DNA of 43,663 bases, from positions 1 through 43,663 of IMG/VR virus record IMGVR_UViG_3300044691_000085. The stretch is one strand, 5' to 3'. Position 1 is the stretch's first letter. Each line of letters starts with the position of its first letter. The stretch comes from a virus. Below are positions 2,895 through 21,763 of the stretch, piece after piece. A program made the position numbers and the translations under genes. The notes beneath the pieces are model-generated. The model saw only the letters and a list, made by a program, of their open reading frames with translations. It did no database searches and was not told where the DNA came from.

Positions 2895-3145
2895 CGTTCT
2901 GGGTCCGCTACAAATTCGATCACGCCAAGCCTGCCCATGATGCGCCCAAGTTGTCCGCAGCCGCGCTGATCCCAGTCACCGCGACATGCGATGTCCTGTT
3001 TCGCTATCGAGGCCTTATGGCAGACGAAATGACAATCCTTGCGCGTTATCTCTCGGATGATTTCCGAGCGGCGTTCGTTGCTCACGATCTTGTCCGGACC
3101 GTACAGGCATTGGTCACATCGCTTGTCCATTACCTTGAATGTCAT
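2891..3145 (-). CDS. Cys-rich hypothetical early protein
   Basis: 84 aa. The start at 3145 gives an ATGA overlap with the HNH gene upstream; the frame extends further but only as a shadow of that gene. Four Cys (CDQC near residue 10, then FVCH and ACRG) and a His suggest a structural zinc site. The pattern KRCDQCL...CHK...CRGD is one I associate with small phage proteins of Rhizobiales. No function known. Confidence 0.65.
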   Translation of the reverse strand: MTFKVMDKRCDQCLYGPDKIVSNERRSEIIREITRKDCHFVCHKASIAKQDIACRGDWDQRGCGQLGRIMGRLGVIEFVADPER

Positions 3146-3501
3146 CGTTCGCGCTCCGCATTTACGATTGATCCGTCGAAGCGGCGCCAGGATCGGATGG
3201 TGCGAGGTTTCTTGATTCCGAGATGGCGCTTTCGGATACGATCGTTCTTGGCCCGAGTTGCTAAATCCTGTTTCGTCTTGACCTTGTGAGGCGCAATCAA
3301 TGCTGGCGCGAAGTTGCTCTCGCGATGTTCGCCGCCGTTGCAGAGCGCCAGAATGTGTTCTAGTTCCCACGCGTCGCTTGCGAGGATCTTCCGTTTCGAC
3401 AGGTAGCAGCTGCCGTCATATCGATTGAAAACGCGCAGGCGGATATAACCCGGCACCTTGGCGTCGTCGGTCTTGCCGATCCATTCTGCGGTGCTACGCA
3501 T
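3142..3501 (-). CDS. HNH endonuclease
   Basis: 119 aa. The HNH fold is visible in the middle: 'ELEHILALCNGGEH' followed by 'NFAPALIAPHKVK', giving the E-H, N and H residues of the metal site. The C-terminal part is basic (NDRIRKRHLGIKKPR) and should bind DNA. The start at 3501 lies 8 bases inside the end of the upstream gene. It may be a free-standing homing nuclease or a general phage HNH enzyme; its position in the early operon, away from terminase, argues against a packaging role. Confidence 0.75.
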   Translation of the reverse strand: MRSTAEWIGKTDDAKVPGYIRLRVFNRYDGSCYLSKRKILASDAWELEHILALCNGGEHRESNFAPALIAPHKVKTKQDLATRAKNDRIRKRHLGIKKPRTIRSWRRFDGSIVNAERER

Positions 3502-3970
3502 GTTCAAGGGCTCTCTTTTTGCTGTGCAGGGCGACGGTGAGAGCTTCGTCAATCGAGAAACCAATCTTTATGCGCCCATAAACCTGCTCATAGGTCAGCT
3601 TCGTGCCGCTCAGATCGACAGCTTCCGCCAAAGACATTTCCCGACCGGCGTAGGAGACCATGCGGTTAATGCTTCTATTCCGCTGTTGCGTTTTGCGAGC
3701 CGCCCAAATGCAATTGCCAGGCTCGTAATTGCCGTCATTATTTTTTCGCTCGATGGAAAACCCAGAACCGGGTCTTTCCTTCATATCTGCGAGAAAATTA
3801 TCAAACGAATTGGCCCATCGCTCACAAACGGAAATGCCTCGGGCGCCATATCTCGGATATTTGGGGTTATTCGGGTTGGTGCAGCGTTGTTTCATGCCAG
3901 TCCAAGCGCGATGCTCTGGACTGCGATTTCCAACCATCGAATGACCATGACGAACTATCCCTCCCACCAT
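3494..3970 (-). CDS. HNH/homing-endonuclease-like protein
   Basis: 158 aa. It has the conserved core of a widespread phage family: 'RAWTGMKQRC', 'YGARGISVCERW', 'FLADM' and 'DGNYEPGNCIWA'. The same core occurs in the rightward gene at 27980-28504, so the window holds two members. The C-terminal ~50 residues ('MSLAEAVDLSG' to 'FSIDEALTVAL') look like a small helical DNA-binding domain. ATG at 3970 is chosen in a GTGATG context; GTG at 3973 is an alternative that adds one residue. Confidence 0.7.
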   Translation of the reverse strand: MVGGIVRHGHSMVGNRSPEHRAWTGMKQRCTNPNNPKYPRYGARGISVCERWANSFDNFLADMKERPGSGFSIERKNNDGNYEPGNCIWAARKTQQRNRSINRMVSYAGREMSLAEAVDLSGTKLTYEQVYGRIKIGFSIDEALTVALHSKKRALEHA

Positions 3971-9534: not shown

Positions 9535-9609
9535 GCCAGCATAGCTCAGATGGAGAGCAGCCGCATTGTAGGCGGACGCGCGCAGACTCAAGCCCTGCTG
9601 TTGGCACCA
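9535..9609 (+). tRNA. tRNA-Thr (anticodon UGU)
   Basis: 75 nt including an encoded CCA. Acceptor GCCAGCA pairs 7/7 with TGTTGGC (one G-U). D-arm is GCTC/GAGC with a GG-containing loop. The anticodon arm has four of five pairs around the loop ATTGTAG, giving UGU with U33 and A37. A 5-base variable region and a T-arm of four pairs follow. Departures from consensus are A53-C61 and C54 in the T-arm and a G-A mismatch at the base of the anticodon stem. It would read ACA threonine codons. It lies in the rightward early operon between protein genes. Confidence 0.85.
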
Positions 9610-15243: not shown

Positions 15244-15484
15244 AACTCCAACAGAAATCCGATCTTTGGCGCGGGCACATACCGAAACCGCGATCAATTG
15301 CCTCGCCGGCATCATGAATGAGCGTGAAGCGCCTCATGCGGCCCGTGTAAGCGCCGCTAATAGCCTGCTGGATCGCGGATGGGGCAAGGCAGCTCAGACG
15401 ATCGAGAACGGCGAAGATGGGCCGTTCGAACTGGTCCACAGAATCGAGCGTATGATTGTCAGCCCTCCGGATTCCAACAGCTAA
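15236..15484 (+). CDS. Putative small terminase subunit
   Basis: 82 aa. 'RSLARAHTETAINCLAGIMNEREAPHAARVSAANSLLDRGWGKA' is the conserved helix pair seen in proteins encoded directly before PBSX-type large terminases in alphaproteobacterial phages. It is shorter than most small terminases. The assignment rests on position and this pattern; DNA recognition at pac or cos is inferred. Confidence 0.6.
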   Translation: MAKTPTEIRSLARAHTETAINCLAGIMNEREAPHAARVSAANSLLDRGWGKAAQTIENGEDGPFELVHRIERMIVSPPDSNS

Positions 15485-16742
15485 GGTATTCCAGCCGCTT
15501 CTTGAGCCGGCGCGATACAAAGGAGCATGGGGCGGCCGCGGGTCCGGCAAATCGCATTTCTTCGGCGAGATGGTCTGCGAAGAATGCATGATGGTCCGGT
15601 CAACGCGGGCGGTCTGTATTCGCGAAGTCCAGCGCACTTTGGCACAGTCGTCAAAGCACTTGATCGAGAGCAAGATACGGGAGCTAAATCTACAGCGCGA
15701 GTTCAAGATCTGGAATGACCGGATTGAAACGCCAGGCGACGGCCTGATCATGTTCACGGGCATGCAGGATCATACTGCGGACAGCATCAAATCGCTGGAA
15801 GGTTTTCGGATAGCATGGATCGACGAAGCGCAGACGCTCTCAGCGCGCTCCTTGTCGCTGTTGAGGCCGACTATACGCGCCGAGAACTCGGAATTGTGGG
15901 CGAGCTGGAATCCACGGCGCAAGTCCGACGCGATCGACGACTTTCTGAGGCACAGAAATCCGACTGGTGCCGTTGTAGTCAAAGCGAACTGGCGCGACAA
16001 TCCTTGGTTTCCGAAGGTTCTGGAAGATGAACGCAAGCTTGACATCGAATTATACCCAGACCGTTACGACCACATTTGGGAAGGCGATTACGCCAAGGCT
16101 TTCGAGGGAGCATACTTTGCCGGATTGCTGGCAAGTGCGCGTTCTCAAGGAAGAATTGGGAGAGTCGCTGCTGACCCGTTGCTCCCCCTCCGCGCTTTCA
16201 TCGATATTGGAGGAAGCGGTGCGACTGCGGATGCTTTCACAATCTGGATCGTCCAATGGGTCGGGCAAGAGATACGAATACTCGATTACTACGAGAGCGT
16301 CGGACAAGTCCTAGCGTTTCACGTCAATTGGCTGCGTTCCAAGGGCTATCAGGACGCAATCCTGTATCTTCCCCATGACGGGGTGAACGAAAACAACATC
16401 ACCGGAAAGCGCTACGAAGAGCACCTGAGAGACGCGGGGTTCAAGGTTGAGCCTCCCGTCAAGAACCAGGGCAAGGGCGCCGCGGCGATGCGCATCGAAG
16501 CTGTCCGCCGGCTGGGCTCTCAGATGTGGTGGAACGAAGACACCACGGAATCGGGCCGCGATGCCATTGGATTTTACCACGAACGGAAAGACGAAACCCG
16601 CAATGTTGGTCTCGGTCCTGATCATGATTGGTCGTCGCATGCGGCGGACGCGCTCGGTCTGATGGCTGTGTGCTATGAGGAACCGGGCAGGTTGGCGAAT
16701 TTCAACCGCAAAATCATCTATCCGAGGACCGGCTACGCATGA
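15456..16742 (+). CDS. Terminase large subunit (PBSX-type)
   Basis: 428 aa, normal length. The ATPase half has Walker A GGRGSGKS (residues 26-33) and Walker B IAWIDEAQ (119-126). The RNase H-like nuclease half has Asp250 and Asp259 (FIDIGGSGATADAF), Asp308 (LPHDG) and Asp398 in 'DWSSHAADAL'. The motor packages DNA into the prohead through the portal and cuts it. The frame needs a TTG start at 15456, 29 bases inside the small-terminase gene; no upstream in-frame ATG was found. Its end overlaps the next start by ATGA. Confidence 0.92.
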   Translation: MSALRIPTAKVFQPLLEPARYKGAWGGRGSGKSHFFGEMVCEECMMVRSTRAVCIREVQRTLAQSSKHLIESKIRELNLQREFKIWNDRIETPGDGLIMFTGMQDHTADSIKSLEGFRIAWIDEAQTLSARSLSLLRPTIRAENSELWASWNPRRKSDAIDDFLRHRNPTGAVVVKANWRDNPWFPKVLEDERKLDIELYPDRYDHIWEGDYAKAFEGAYFAGLLASARSQGRIGRVAADPLLPLRAFIDIGGSGATADAFTIWIVQWVGQEIRILDYYESVGQVLAFHVNWLRSKGYQDAILYLPHDGVNENNITGKRYEEHLRDAGFKVEPPVKNQGKGAAAMRIEAVRRLGSQMWWNEDTTESGRDAIGFYHERKDETRNVGLGPDHDWSSHAADALGLMAVCYEEPGRLANFNRKIIYPRTGYA

Positions 16743-17044
16743 TTGATGTGCAGACTGTGATCGTTCAATTGCGCAAGCCTGATGCCTTCTCGCCGGGCCA
16801 CGTCACTACGGGCTATTACGTTGTGCGAGACGGCGCAATCATGATGACGTATGCCGACGGCGAGCCGGTCTACCGCGACCCGGAGAAAACCCTGACTTAC
16901 ACCCACCAGATATGCGAGGGCGATAATGTGCAGGCTATCGCGGGTGTTCTGACCAGACAAGTGCGGCGCGAATTAGCCGGTATTTCGGAAGAGCAGGAAG
17001 CGTTCGCGAGCCCGCTCAATTATCCGAGGGCCGGCGTTGCCTAA
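16739..17044 (+). CDS. Hypothetical protein between terminase and portal
   Basis: 101 aa. 'VTTGYYVVRDGAIMMTYADGEPVY' looks like a small beta domain; C-terminal 'RQVRRELAGISEEQEAF' is helical and ends in a segment resembling the end of the terminase (YPRAG/YPRTG). Coupled by ATGA to terminase. Function unknown. Confidence 0.6.
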   Translation: MIDVQTVIVQLRKPDAFSPGHVTTGYYVVRDGAIMMTYADGEPVYRDPEKTLTYTHQICEGDNVQAIAGVLTRQVRRELAGISEEQEAFASPLNYPRAGVA

Positions 17045-17636
17045 AATATCTACTGACGAACTCAAAGCGCTATTGAGTTCCGAAAAGTCCAACGCCATCG
17101 CGACCATGGACGCCTCCGACATTTCGTCGCAGCGCGAAGACGCGATGGATTATTACCTTGGCGACATGACCAAGGATATGCCGACGCAAGAGGGGCAGTC
17201 CAAGGCGGTCTCAACCGATGTTGCCGATACCGTGCTCGGCATGATGCCGTTCATGATGGATGTGTTCTGTTCATCGGAGGAAGTAGTCCGGTTCAACCCG
17301 GTTGGGCCGGACGACGAAAAGGCCGCGGAGCAGGAATCGGATTACGTCAACCACGTCTTCATGAACCAGAATCCCGGTTTCGTGGTGATGTATGAGTTGA
17401 TCTTTGATGCGCTGCTGGAAAAGCTCGGCGCGGTCAAGGTATGGTGGGATGAGCATGAAGAAGAAGAGAAGGAAACCTATCTCGGGCTTTCCGATGATCA
17501 ATTCGCACAGATCGCGTTCGATGTTCTGCAATCCAATGGAGAGATGAAGATCATCGCGCATACTGTGAACCAGGGCGGCGATGAAACGGATGAGCCGAAG
17601 GACGAAGCGAAAGAGCCGGAAGGGGCGATATCGTGA
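17037..17636 (+). CDS. Portal protein, N-terminal fragment (SU10-type)
   Basis: 199 aa. It matches the start of SU10-like portal proteins: 'REDAMDYYLGDM', 'VSTDVADTVLGMMPFMMDVF', 'DYVNHVFMNQNPGF', 'FDALLEKLGAVKVWWDE'. It stops after the strand 'EMKIIAHTVNQGG' and an acidic tail (DETDEPKDEAKEPEGAIS). The rest of the portal follows in another frame from a GTG that overlaps this stop (GTGA). The break falls in the loop between two strands of the wing region. Either a naturally two-piece portal or a frame break. Confidence 0.85.
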   Translation: MPKISTDELKALLSSEKSNAIATMDASDISSQREDAMDYYLGDMTKDMPTQEGQSKAVSTDVADTVLGMMPFMMDVFCSSEEVVRFNPVGPDDEKAAEQESDYVNHVFMNQNPGFVVMYELIFDALLEKLGAVKVWWDEHEEEEKETYLGLSDDQFAQIAFDVLQSNGEMKIIAHTVNQGGDETDEPKDEAKEPEGAIS

Positions 17637-19333
17637 ACGCCCCTTATCCGCCGCCACAAGGCCAGCCAATCGGAGGGCCGGCAGAGGCCTCGCTTGGCAC
17701 GATACCGCCTCAAGGGCCGGCACAGAACGCTATGGTGCCGCCGCCTTCTCCCGTCACGCACGATGTCACGATCCTCCGTACCAAAAACTATGCACAGGCC
17801 AAGGTCGAAGCCTGCGCGCCTGAAGAGATCGGCTGGGGCCGGAATACCCGGACCATCAAGGACTGCACCTATTTCTTCCACTCCCCGCCGAACCATACTG
17901 AAGGCAGCCTGATCGCGGAGGGGTACGATGAAGTCCAGATCAAGGAATTGCCAACCTATAACTTCGCGTCCAATTCCGAAGAACTCGCGCGGGACACGAT
18001 AGGCGAGGAAAACTTCTCCGCTGAAACCGCCAACCGGACGACGCGGCCTATTCAGGTCACCGAGCATTATATCAAGATGGACTATGAGGGCAACGATAAG
18101 CCCTGCCTGTACAAGGTGACGACCGGCGGGGGACAGAACGAAGTTCTGACCAAGAAAGGCAAGCCCGACGTTGAGGAAGCGGACGTTATCCCGTTCGCTG
18201 TCCTGACCCCCATCCTGCAGCCTCACAGGCTGGTCGGGAGGTCGATTGCCGATCTGGTGATGGATATCCAGCGGATCAATACCGCACTTCTCAGGGGCGT
18301 TCTGGACAACTCCTACATGGTGGCAAATCCCCGCCATGAGGTCGCAGAGGGTGGTGCCAACGCAAATACGCTGGATGATCTGTTGACCGTCCGCCGCAAC
18401 GGCATCGTGCGCGTGAAAGTATCGGGCACGGTTGTCCCGCTTGAAACTCAGTCGATCGTCGGCGAACTGCTCCCCGTCATGACCTATATGGATCAGATCC
18501 GGGAGATGCGCTCGGGCGTGACCCGGACAGGGCAGGGCGTAGACGCCAACGCTCTGCAGAACCAGTCGGCCACCGCGGTCAACCGGGTCTTCACGATGGC
18601 ACAAGCCAAGATGAAGATGATCGCGCGGGTGTTCGCTGAAACCGGCGTCAAGGATTTGTTCTGGCTGTTGCACGCCACGATCCGCAAGCACGGCCAAAAG
18701 GCTGAAACGGTCAGGCTGCGGAACAACTGGACCTCGGTTGATCCGAGGGAGTGGAAAACCCGCAACGACATGACCGTGCAGGTTGGGGTTGGGGATGGTG
18801 GAAAATCCCAGCAGTTCGCACAGGTGCAGGCCATCGGCGCGGCCCAAGAAAAGCTGCTCATGGGCGGCAAGACCAACCTTGTAGGAGATCGGGAGCTTTA
18901 CAATACAGCGGCCGAAATGGCTAGGATCATGGGGCACAAGAACCCGGACAAATTCTTCAACGATCCGAGCGCGCAAAATCCGGACGGCACGCCGAAGTAT
19001 CCCGCGCCTCCTCCTCGGGTTGATCCGAAGGTGCAGGCTGTCCAGGCACAGTCCCAGGCCGATCAGGCGGAAATCGCGCTGAAGGCCCAACTTGACCAGC
19101 AAAAGGCGGCAGACGCAAAAGCCTTGGCAGAGGTTAAGGCCGATTTTGAAGCCAAGCTGAAGCTGCTCGAAGCGCATATCATGCTGGTGCAGGAAGGGCA
19201 GAAAGCCCGCAACAGCCAGCAGGAGCACCACGCCAATATGGCTGAGACCGCATTAGGAATGGTCGCCACGGCTCACGCGCACGATACCAGGATTGAGCAG
19301 ATGAAACATCAGCCGAACAAGTCCGATGCCTGA
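17633..19333 (+). CDS. Portal protein, C-terminal fragment (SU10-type)
   Basis: 566 aa. After a Pro/Gly-rich leader of about 40 residues it continues the portal fold with 'VTILRTKNYAQAKVEACAPEEIGW', the crown/clip core 'GRSIADLVMDIQRINTALLRGVLDN', 'IREMRSGVTRTGQGVDANAL' and a long C-terminal helix rich in Ala, Gln and Lys. The GTG start has AGGGG upstream and overlaps the previous stop. Upstream, the frame is open only back to a stop at 17591-17593, so any indel that fused the halves would lie in 17594-17636. The portal forms the DNA channel at the head vertex. Confidence 0.87.
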   Translation: MNAPYPPPQGQPIGGPAEASLGTIPPQGPAQNAMVPPPSPVTHDVTILRTKNYAQAKVEACAPEEIGWGRNTRTIKDCTYFFHSPPNHTEGSLIAEGYDEVQIKELPTYNFASNSEELARDTIGEENFSAETANRTTRPIQVTEHYIKMDYEGNDKPCLYKVTTGGGQNEVLTKKGKPDVEEADVIPFAVLTPILQPHRLVGRSIADLVMDIQRINTALLRGVLDNSYMVANPRHEVAEGGANANTLDDLLTVRRNGIVRVKVSGTVVPLETQSIVGELLPVMTYMDQIREMRSGVTRTGQGVDANALQNQSATAVNRVFTMAQAKMKMIARVFAETGVKDLFWLLHATIRKHGQKAETVRLRNNWTSVDPREWKTRNDMTVQVGVGDGGKSQQFAQVQAIGAAQEKLLMGGKTNLVGDRELYNTAAEMARIMGHKNPDKFFNDPSAQNPDGTPKYPAPPPRVDPKVQAVQAQSQADQAEIALKAQLDQQKAADAKALAEVKADFEAKLKLLEAHIMLVQEGQKARNSQQEHHANMAETALGMVATAHAHDTRIEQMKHQPNKSDA

Positions 19334-19625
19334 CGAGTTCAAACTTCACCAGATCGCCAAGCGCGCGGATGAGGCGAGGGCTCTCCTTGAAAACCCGTTG
19401 CTCGCGGAATCGTTCGAGAAGCTGAAGCAGACCTACATCGGTCAATTGATGGACACCAACGTCACACAATCCGATTTGCGGGACCGATGCTGGATGGCCG
19501 CCCGCGTGGTCGATGTCGTGAAAGATCATCTAACTGCAATCGTGAATAACGGCGTGGTTGCCAAGAGCGATCTTGACCGTCTTGCACAGGAAGCCCAGCG
19601 CAAAAAGCGCTTTGGCATAGTCTAA
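19326..19625 (+). CDS. Hypothetical head-region protein
   Basis: 99 aa, helical and charged. 'RADEARALLENPLLAESFEKLKQTYIGQLM' and 'RDRCWMAARVVDVVKDHL' are typical of a small protein encoded after SU10-type portals. It overlaps the portal end by 8 bases. Function unknown. Confidence 0.6.
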   Translation: MPDEFKLHQIAKRADEARALLENPLLAESFEKLKQTYIGQLMDTNVTQSDLRDRCWMAARVVDVVKDHLTAIVNNGVVAKSDLDRLAQEAQRKKRFGIV

Positions 19626-19635
19626 AGGAAAATCC

Positions 19636-20778
19636 ATGAGTGATACCGCCAACTGGCAGCTTGCTGGATTGACTTCGCACATCTCGTTGATGCATCGGCC
19701 GTATGGCCCGCGCATCCATTTGAGCGATACAGCAGAGAGCGCGCCAGCGGGAATTGAACCCGCGCCGGTTATCTCGGCTCCAAATCTGGAGGGCGACAGC
19801 TTTTCAGTTGAGGAAGCCTTCGCGTCTTACCAGAACAAGAACAATCCCCCGGCAGATGGCGCGGACGACGCGACCGCCGGCAATGAATTGGCGGAAGCCA
19901 ACCCGGAATCTCCGGAAACGGAGACGACCGCGGAAGACCAGGAGACCGAACCGGCCAAGCCGGCGATCGATCCTCCGAAGTCTTGGACGAAAGACCTGCA
20001 TGACCACTGGGCAACCCTCGACCCCGCTTTACAGGAACACATTGTAACACGGGACAGGGAAGATCAGGCGGCTATCAAGCGATCTTTCAACGAAGCTGCT
20101 GAAGCCCGCAAAGCCGCAGAGGCAGAGCGAGCACAAGCGGAACAGGCGCGTAAAAAGTACGAGGAGAAGCTGCCGCTTCTGGAAAAGAAACTCCAGACGG
20201 TCGGCCCGTTCGCTGATGTCCAGTCCATGGAAGACCTGAGAAAGATGCAGGCGGAAGACCCCTTCCGCTTTCAGCAATATCAGCTCTATCAGTGGGAACA
20301 GCAGGCCGAACAGGCCGAACTGAAAGAAGCGGAAGGCCGAAAGCTGCAAGAGCGGATCGGCAAGCGTGGTGCATACGAGGCGGAGCAGAACAAGCTCCTG
20401 GCTGATTTGGTGCCGGAAATGGCAGATCCAAAGAAGGTCGGCCAAATGCGCGACGATGCCGTGAAGATGCTCGAAAATGACTTTGGGCTGAAAACCGATT
20501 TGCTTCAGCGCTGGATGAACGACGATGTTGGGCACGAGATCCTGTCCAATGCCGGCTTTCAAAAGCTTGTCGCCGATCAGTTGAAGGCCAAGGCCGTCAA
20601 GGCAGCCCCTCCGAAGGCCATCCCAAAACCTGTTCCCGCAGTGGTCAAACCCGGCATTGCCGCTCCTCGCGGAGCACAAGCAGCCGAATCCGTCCAAGCA
20701 TCCCGCAACAAACTCTCCGGCTCCGGCTCGGTAGAAGACGCTTTTGCGCTCTATCAGGCCAAACGGCGCCGGTCCTAA
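19636..20778 (+). CDS. Scaffolding protein
   Basis: 380 aa between portal and capsid genes, acidic N-terminal half, then a long Ala/Glu/Lys/Gln coiled coil (about 150-240) and a basic C-terminus (KRRRS), the usual make-up of a scaffold. A SVEEAFASYQ motif at residues 57-66 recurs as SVEDAFALYQ at 365-374. The first ~55 residues are unusual and overlie a tRNA T-arm-like sequence on the other strand. Start 19636 has an AAAGGA site. Confidence 0.75.
   Translation: MSDTANWQLAGLTSHISLMHRPYGPRIHLSDTAESAPAGIEPAPVISAPNLEGDSFSVEEAFASYQNKNNPPADGADDATAGNELAEANPESPETETTAEDQETEPAKPAIDPPKSWTKDLHDHWATLDPALQEHIVTRDREDQAAIKRSFNEAAEARKAAEAERAQAEQARKKYEEKLPLLEKKLQTVGPFADVQSMEDLRKMQAEDPFRFQQYQLYQWEQQAEQAELKEAEGRKLQERIGKRGAYEAEQNKLLADLVPEMADPKKVGQMRDDAVKMLENDFGLKTDLLQRWMNDDVGHEILSNAGFQKLVADQLKAKAVKAAPPKAIPKPVPAVVKPGIAAPRGAQAAESVQASRNKLSGSGSVEDAFALYQAKRRRS
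19736..19762 (-). other. tRNA T-arm-like sequence inside the scaffold gene
   Basis: On the minus strand GCGGG-TTCAATT-CCCGC forms a perfect T-stem and T-loop, followed by TGGCGC like an acceptor strand. The rest of a tRNA is not convincing: no good anticodon arm and no CCA. On the coding strand it reads 'AGIEPAP', the kind of peptide produced by translating a tRNA in antisense. Possible remnant of a tRNA end. Confidence 0.35.
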
Positions 20779-20797: not shown

Positions 20798-21763
20798 ATG
20801 ACTATTCCCGTCAATGCCCAGACTACCTATCCCACGATCGGCAACCGCGAAGACCTCTCCGACGAGGTTTGGAAAATCTCGCCGACCGAAACCCCGTTCT
20901 TCTCGGCTATCGAAAAGATCGGTGCCAAGGCCGTCAACCACGAATGGCAGACCGTTGCATTGGATGCGGTCAACACCTCCAATGCCCAGCTCGAAGGTGA
21001 TACCTTCGCTCTGCTCGCGTTGACGCCCACCGTTCGCCTTGGCAATATCCATCAGATCAGCAGCAAGGCTGGCGGCGTGTCACGTACCCAGCGATCGGTC
21101 AATCCGGCCGGCCGCGCGGACGAACTCGGCTTTCAGAAGATGCTCAAGGGTCAGGCCCTCAAGATCGATATTGACTCGATCATTTGCGGCACCAACCAGG
21201 CCAAGGCCGCCGGCAACGCGACCACGGCGCGTACCACCGCCTCGGTTATCTCGTGGATCAAGACCAACACCGACAAGGCAACCGCCGGCACCGCTGGCGT
21301 TGACCCTGCGGCGGCTGACGGTACGGGCACCCGCACCGACGGCACCCAGATTGCGTTCACCGAACTTCGCATGAAGAACGTGCTTAACAAGATCTGGACG
21401 CAGGGCGGCAAGGCCAATCTGGTCATGGCCGGCGCCTTCAACAAGCAGGCGTTTTCGACCTTCACGGGCCGTTCAACCCCGATGGAAGAGGCGAAGTCCA
21501 AGAAGATCGTGGCCGCGGTCGATGCTTACGAATCCGACTTCGGCAAGCTCAAGATCGTGCCGTCCCGCAACGTGCGTACCCGCGACGTGCTGGTACTCGA
21601 AACGGGCAAGTGGGCTATTGGCCATCTGCCGGGGTCCGCAATGGTTTCCGAAGACCTTGCGAAGGTCAGCGATACCGAGCAGTTCGCGATTGTGAGTGAG
21701 TATGTTTTGGAAGCTCGCAACGAAAAAGCCTCCGGCGGCGTTTTCGACAATACCGTCTCGTAA
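20798..21763 (+). CDS. Major capsid protein (DUF5309, SU10-type)
   Basis: 321 aa. It matches the DUF5309/SU10 capsid family: 'DLSDEVWKISPTETPFFSAI' at the N-terminus, 'VNHEWQTVALDAV', 'QISSKAGGVSRTQRSV', 'VMAGAFNKQAFSTFTGR' and 'KIVPSRNVRTRDVLVLETGKWAI' near the end. Forms the HK97-fold shell; related phages include elongated heads. An intrinsic terminator follows. Confidence 0.9.
   Translation: MTIPVNAQTTYPTIGNREDLSDEVWKISPTETPFFSAIEKIGAKAVNHEWQTVALDAVNTSNAQLEGDTFALLALTPTVRLGNIHQISSKAGGVSRTQRSVNPAGRADELGFQKMLKGQALKIDIDSIICGTNQAKAAGNATTARTTASVISWIKTNTDKATAGTAGVDPAAADGTGTRTDGTQIAFTELRMKNVLNKIWTQGGKANLVMAGAFNKQAFSTFTGRSTPMEEAKSKKIVAAVDAYESDFGKLKIVPSRNVRTRDVLVLETGKWAIGHLPGSAMVSEDLAKVSDTEQFAIVSEYVLEARNEKASGGVFDNTVS

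Follow-up and report, generated by a model that had tools for sequence, protein, structure and literature searches.

An SU10-type portal protein divided at one wing position between two genes in a soil phage and many related rhizobial phages

Few machines of tailed phages and herpesviruses are as conserved as the portal, which is regarded as a ring of single-chain subunits that links packaging with headful sensing and the joining of the tail. In phage operons, translationally coupled gene pairs have stop/start overlaps such as TGATG and GTGA. Portals of the SU10 type (PF23899) include SU10 gp6 (PDB 7z44) and the PaP3-type portal of PDB 7sxk, which we take to be that of Pseudomonas phage PaP3. 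Outside the profile definition, a single continuous polypeptide is usual for portals of this type. Split genes have been described in the Jug phages, in which terL and nrdD are divided by a homing endonuclease or an intron (PMC12363816). A limited search of the open literature, with subscription journals mostly outside it, found no earlier report of a split, two-gene or fragmented phage portal, and the novelty of the arrangement described here is stated tentatively on that basis.

The DNA analysed here is a stretch of 43,663 nucleotides from a soil phage (IMG/VR record IMGVR_UViG_3300044691_000085), referred to as the window; features are on the + strand unless stated otherwise. The usual single polypeptide is replaced in the window by two open reading frames (ORFs), a portal N-terminal half (17037–17636, TTG start, 199 aa) and a portal C-terminal half (17633–19333, GTG start, 566 aa), both assigned by PF23899, phrog_1216 and alignment to 7sxk. 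The result showed that the N half matches positions 2–168 of the SU10_portal profile PF23899 (E 3e-52, 178 bits) and the C half positions 171–593 of 593 (E 3e-122, 410 bits), both far above the curated cut-off of 30 bits, and that both halves match the portal family phrog_1216. The two overlapping portal reading frames claimed in a preliminary description of the locus are thus present as described and match one portal family end to end. The GTG start, upstream AGGGG and GTGA overlap that it had reported are present too: the stop of the first gene and the start of the second overlap by 4 nt (GTGA, 17633–17636; relatives have TGATG, TAATG or GTGA there), and a Shine–Dalgarno (SD)-like AAGGGG (17620–17625) lies 7 nt before the GTG of the C half.

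The terminase large subunit gene (15456–16742; PF04466, phrog_3717) lies upstream in the same head operon. Downstream are a conserved 99-aa gene (19326–19625), whose ATG overlaps the C-half stop and which is the same neighbour after the C half in relatives, a head scaffolding protein gene (19636–20778; phrog_3927) and the gene of an SU10-type major capsid protein (20798–21763; PF17236), so that the pair is found between the terminase gene and the scaffold and SU10-type capsid genes. Overlaps were also found between the terminase gene and a 101-aa ORF, between this ORF and the N half, and between the C half and the 99-aa gene. Because successive genes there overlap, the GTGA junction fits the style of the operon. 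A search of the 43,663-base record found no further copy of the portal. Opposite the C half, an antisense open frame of 577 aa (17498–19231, − strand) is probably a by-product of G+C-rich codon use. A tRNA gene (9535–9606) is the sole Rfam match in the window.

Alignment to 7sxk placed the N half at residues 26–190 and the C half at residues 180–678. Alignment to solved portals showed that the cut falls in a β-hairpin turn (7sxk residues ~175–181), around SILAQSVDDDGTYTIKI, and the earlier statement that the break lies in a surface loop is therefore sound. In SU10, portal residues 8–44 form the capsid-lining helix (PMC9509320). By homology, the N half comprises the equivalent capsid-facing helix and the first part of the wing, with an acidic tail at its end, and the C half comprises the remainder: a Pro/Gly-rich head, the rest of the wing, the stem, clip, crown and barrel. 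AlphaFold2 models of the halves taken singly, made from input alignments of 44 and 37 rows, were of low confidence (pLDDT 62 for the N half and 60 for the C half; pTM 0.27 and 0.28).

In the tree, the window's portal falls in one group with six fused portals (L003, L005, L006, L007, L058 and L059), with support of 100/100; the best identity to them is 81%. Because the frame of the C half is open from 17594 onwards, a single indel within 17594–17636 would join the two frames, as the preliminary description had rightly pointed out when it left room for a frame error. It had also held that continuous portal frames in all close relatives, with high identity through the junction, would speak against a genuine split. 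The six nearest relatives are indeed continuous, but it is exactly at the junction that their identity to the window collapses. Identity between the window and its fused kin is mostly 0.65–0.87 on the N side and mostly 0.6–0.85 past the junction; it drops to 0.49–0.64 at 17537–17596, and at 17597–17656 the fused kin have no counterpart. In the block starting at 17537, the window is 0.65–0.67 identical to four of five compared split phages and 0.51 identical to the fifth (L020), and ATGAAGATC, CGCATAC.GT.AAC and GTCACGCACGATGTCACGATC are common to the window and split types. A hypothetical joined window product would carry a 66-aa linker (24+42), compared with 16–21 aa in the fused close relatives. 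Judged from these alignments, a one-base change in a fused junction would not give the junction of the window. That the portal gene is really fused and the split a frame error of sequencing or assembly, a view to which the open C frame and the six fused relatives had lent some colour, is exceedingly unlikely in view of the long linker, a split-type junction complete with tail, SD-like site and stop/start overlap, and the same split in a cultured phage and in isolate genomes (see below).

With fused nearest relatives, the split could also be confined to the window, as expected if a recent inactivating mutation had broken the portal gene and left the phage defective. This is quite unlikely, because the junction, with its start codon, SD-like site and split-type flanking codons, does not resemble a once-changed fused gene, the neighbouring head genes examined (terminase, scaffold and capsid) are intact, and the split may be an old one. 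A topology in which the six fused relatives form a single clade next to the window was not rejected (p-AU 0.21), so an older split was possibly retained by the window. Either an older split persisted in the window while its kin re-fused, or the window gained a split junction by recombination. Since its six closest relatives are fused, the window's lineage tolerates both forms. No phage record was matched when the window's first 25 kb were searched with megablast, and plasmid records gave weak matches only.

IMG/VR was scanned twice and GTDB genomes once; these scans, which favour close relatives, yielded ~130 portal loci. Frame analysis showed that in most of these the two halves lie in different frames or form separate ORFs and that 20 are fused; duplicates and a few additionally damaged loci are included in these counts. 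After removal of duplicates, 96 distinct portals remained, comprising 72 split, 23 fused and one with the C gene first; this set includes seven added distant phages, all fused. The position of the split is the same β-turn across 72 of the 96, and the alignment of related portals, which had been proposed earlier as a check, thus found the split conserved. Dozens of independent phages have this breakpoint, more than chance would give. Among isolates, PF23899 matches were found in 50 of 243 Bradyrhizobium-group genomes. The N and C pieces occupy separate places in 29 of the 243 (including two genomes with the pieces on different contigs and one with a C piece ending early), and about seven read across the junction (G097, G065, G238, G111, G055, G165 and G141). 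Where the pieces are separate, the N piece ends at profile positions 159–196, mostly 163–172, and the C piece starts at 161–197, mostly 168–175. The breakpoint is uniform in independently sequenced isolates, and sequencing error is therefore excluded as a general cause. The split is a real design, not damage, and is common to many related rhizobial phages.

The closest cultured phage is ppUSDA76Be-2 (OP596614), which is split at the same place with the same gene order; its overlap is TGATG, whereas that of the window is GTGA. It has been described as a podophage that Bradyrhizobium elkanii USDA 76 produces spontaneously, its capsid measuring 57 nm and its tail 38 nm, and DNase-protected DNA is enriched on the chromosome; its assignment among the strain's two particles was made partly via capsid phylogeny (PMC10127595). 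The PF23899 matches in OP596614 are the two halves and nothing else, and the large annotated ORFs scanned gave no match to other portal families. Because ppUSDA76Be-2 has DNase-protected DNA and these two halves as its PF23899 matches, a phage with only a split portal makes filled particles. These particles are the strongest functional point and bear on the window indirectly. The portal goes unmentioned in the paper on ppUSDA76Be-2 (PMC10127595). In the record, the portal C half (OP596614.1 19585–21246; L002 5959–7620) has no annotated gene, and the N half is labelled 'hypothetical protein'.

In other relatives the two halves are parted or reordered. Gaps of 0.8–3 kb between them were found in L019, L035, L049, L071 and others, and gaps of 4–5.6 kb in G005, G007 and G003, where cassettes with M23-peptidase genes lie around or between the halves. 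In L013, an HNH_3 endonuclease gene (1089–1565) lies between the halves. The C half is ahead of the N half in L032 (C 463–2184, N 3004–3576) and L053, and directly follows the terminase gene in L033; in all three the C half comes after terminase and the N half lies downstream past a 98-aa gene. Because the halves are kept though kilobases apart, parted by an HNH gene or reversed, a joined chain is unneeded in these phages. Neither the window nor 17 loci whose halves are separated matched an Rfam intron family. The arrangement is not that of an intron- or intein-interrupted gene: the window halves overlap by 4 nt, and an HNH gene between the halves was found only in L013. Cassettes between head genes, M23 peptidases among them, were also seen in L162–L166, L035, L049 and L071, together with a repeated family that begins like MSVNENGNLRPDG...GTYYWNPGSP. 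Extra partial portal C-terminal copies (profile ~456–593) were observed away from the main C half in L054 (4001–4435), L166 (9097–9558), G130, G173 and G179, and are probably duplications.

Across 308 pairs of related split portals, which are non-independent, the median dN/dS was 0.086 for the N half and 0.138 for the C half, with a maximum of 0.23; at the level of codon substitution, both halves are under strong purifying selection. The N half has 51 invariant columns across aligned homologues, and in the 243 Bradyrhizobium-group genomes intact C halves are nearly always paired with an N half. With the N gene kilobases away in many relatives and able to bear added tails, one could suppose that the C half alone forms the ring and that the N half has another role, for example as a separate capsid or DNA-binding factor. 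That is improbable, since the N half carries the homologue of the capsid-lining helix (SU10 8–44, PMC9509320) as well as the first part of the wing, keeps its invariant columns and very low omega, and is nearly always retained alongside an intact C half.

The relatives with overlapping halves gave 39 distinct overlaps, of which 33 are TGATG or TAATG and three GTGA (36 of 39 together), with an SD-like tetramer ahead of the second start in 34. The commonest overlapping junction in relatives is GAGGCGACGAGC TGATG GACGCC; the junction of L050 is also GTGA, and that of L051 is TTGA. The window has both marks of a coupled pair, a stop/start overlap and, inside the upstream gene, an SD-like site, and together these probably point to termination–reinitiation in the window. 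A hairpin was predicted at 17620–17645 (AAGGGGCG - ATATCGTGAA - CGCCCCTT), with GTGA in the loop and the SD-like AAGGGG covered. Its 8-bp stem (AAGGGGCG/CGCCCCUU) has AAGGGG as the 5′ arm and leaves the GTG in the loop, so that translation of the second gene would depend on ribosomes arriving from the first. The 60 nt around the window's junction gave a folding z of −2.0, and the hairpin shape is not conserved in relatives. Folding of the relatives' junctions was modestly above controls (mean z −0.61 vs −0.11; z below −1 in 17 of 38 junctions vs 41 of 228 controls, the sequences being related). As this excess is modest, the hairpin is put forward as a suggestion, a possible coupling switch in the window.

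The preliminary description had regarded the junction as a translational coupling site, not damage. An evolved and conserved split, with a stop/start overlap and an SD-like site in most overlapping relatives, bears this out; however, coupling is no clade-wide requirement, because in many relatives the halves are kilobases apart or the C half precedes the N half. Another way to express such overlapping frames would be a programmed −1 ribosomal frameshift that joins them, so that a full-length portal is still made. Relative to the N half, the C half is read in the −1 frame, and in most overlapping relatives the two frames are jointly open over 10–139 nt, as a frameshift would need. Nevertheless, no slippery heptamer X XXY YYZ was found in the 39 distinct overlaps, the frame overlap in L010 and L029 is just the 4 nt of the stop/start, and halves that are kilobases apart or reversed cannot be joined in this way, implying that a frameshift is very improbable.

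The split and fused states need about 4–5 changes over the tree, and the distant portals are all fused. A single origin of the split was considered and rejected: bootstrap trees never gave one event. Given about 4–5 changes, we claim neither that the portal split once and never fused nor that the window alone is split. We lean towards a rhizobial podovirus clade with an obligate portal of 12 N and 12 C chains, whose genes would be independent enough for cassettes, a homing endonuclease and reordering, and in which single- and two-chain forms would have been interconverted several times, including re-fusion in the window's group.

Taken together, the reading that we favour, with a probability of about 0.8, is that the soil phage of the window encodes an SU10-type portal as two separate polypeptides that reassemble in the wing, the two-chain assembly being deduced. 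The N half, with its capsid-facing helix and part of the wing, would dock onto the C half after translation, and the strands flanking the missing turn would still pair between chains, each of the twelve portal positions holding one N and one C chain. In the window, the chains would probably be made in equal amounts by termination–reinitiation at GTGA, perhaps with the SD-like site masked in the hairpin until this is opened by ribosomes translating the first gene. In place of the former loop there would be two free ends, the acidic tail and the Pro/Gly-rich head. From the genes and their junction we infer a two-chain ring, 1:1 stoichiometry and translational coupling.

A natural two-chain portal with a fixed wing break would be a system for asking which parts of the portal need covalent joining, how the wing communicates with the stem and what maintains the N:C stoichiometry. 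The analysis also corrects annotation, as OP596614 has no annotation for the C half, which makes up most of the portal, and single-gene searches can report split-portal phages as portal-less or as having a truncated portal.

Compared with the SU10-type portals (PF23899; SU10 gp6 and the PaP3-type portal), the window halves show homology over the whole profile once combined and occupy the same place between the terminase and the scaffold and capsid genes. The subunits of the solved portals are single chains, whereas the window encodes two chains, cut near 7sxk residues 175–181. The Jug-type split genes likewise have an essential gene in pieces, and L013 has an HNH gene between its portal halves; they differ in that the window and most close relatives have nothing between the halves and no intron match, and the halves overlap as coupled genes do. 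Coupled phage gene pairs share with the window a stop/start overlap, an SD-like site in the upstream gene and membership of one operon, but the window pair consists of two pieces of what is one protein elsewhere.
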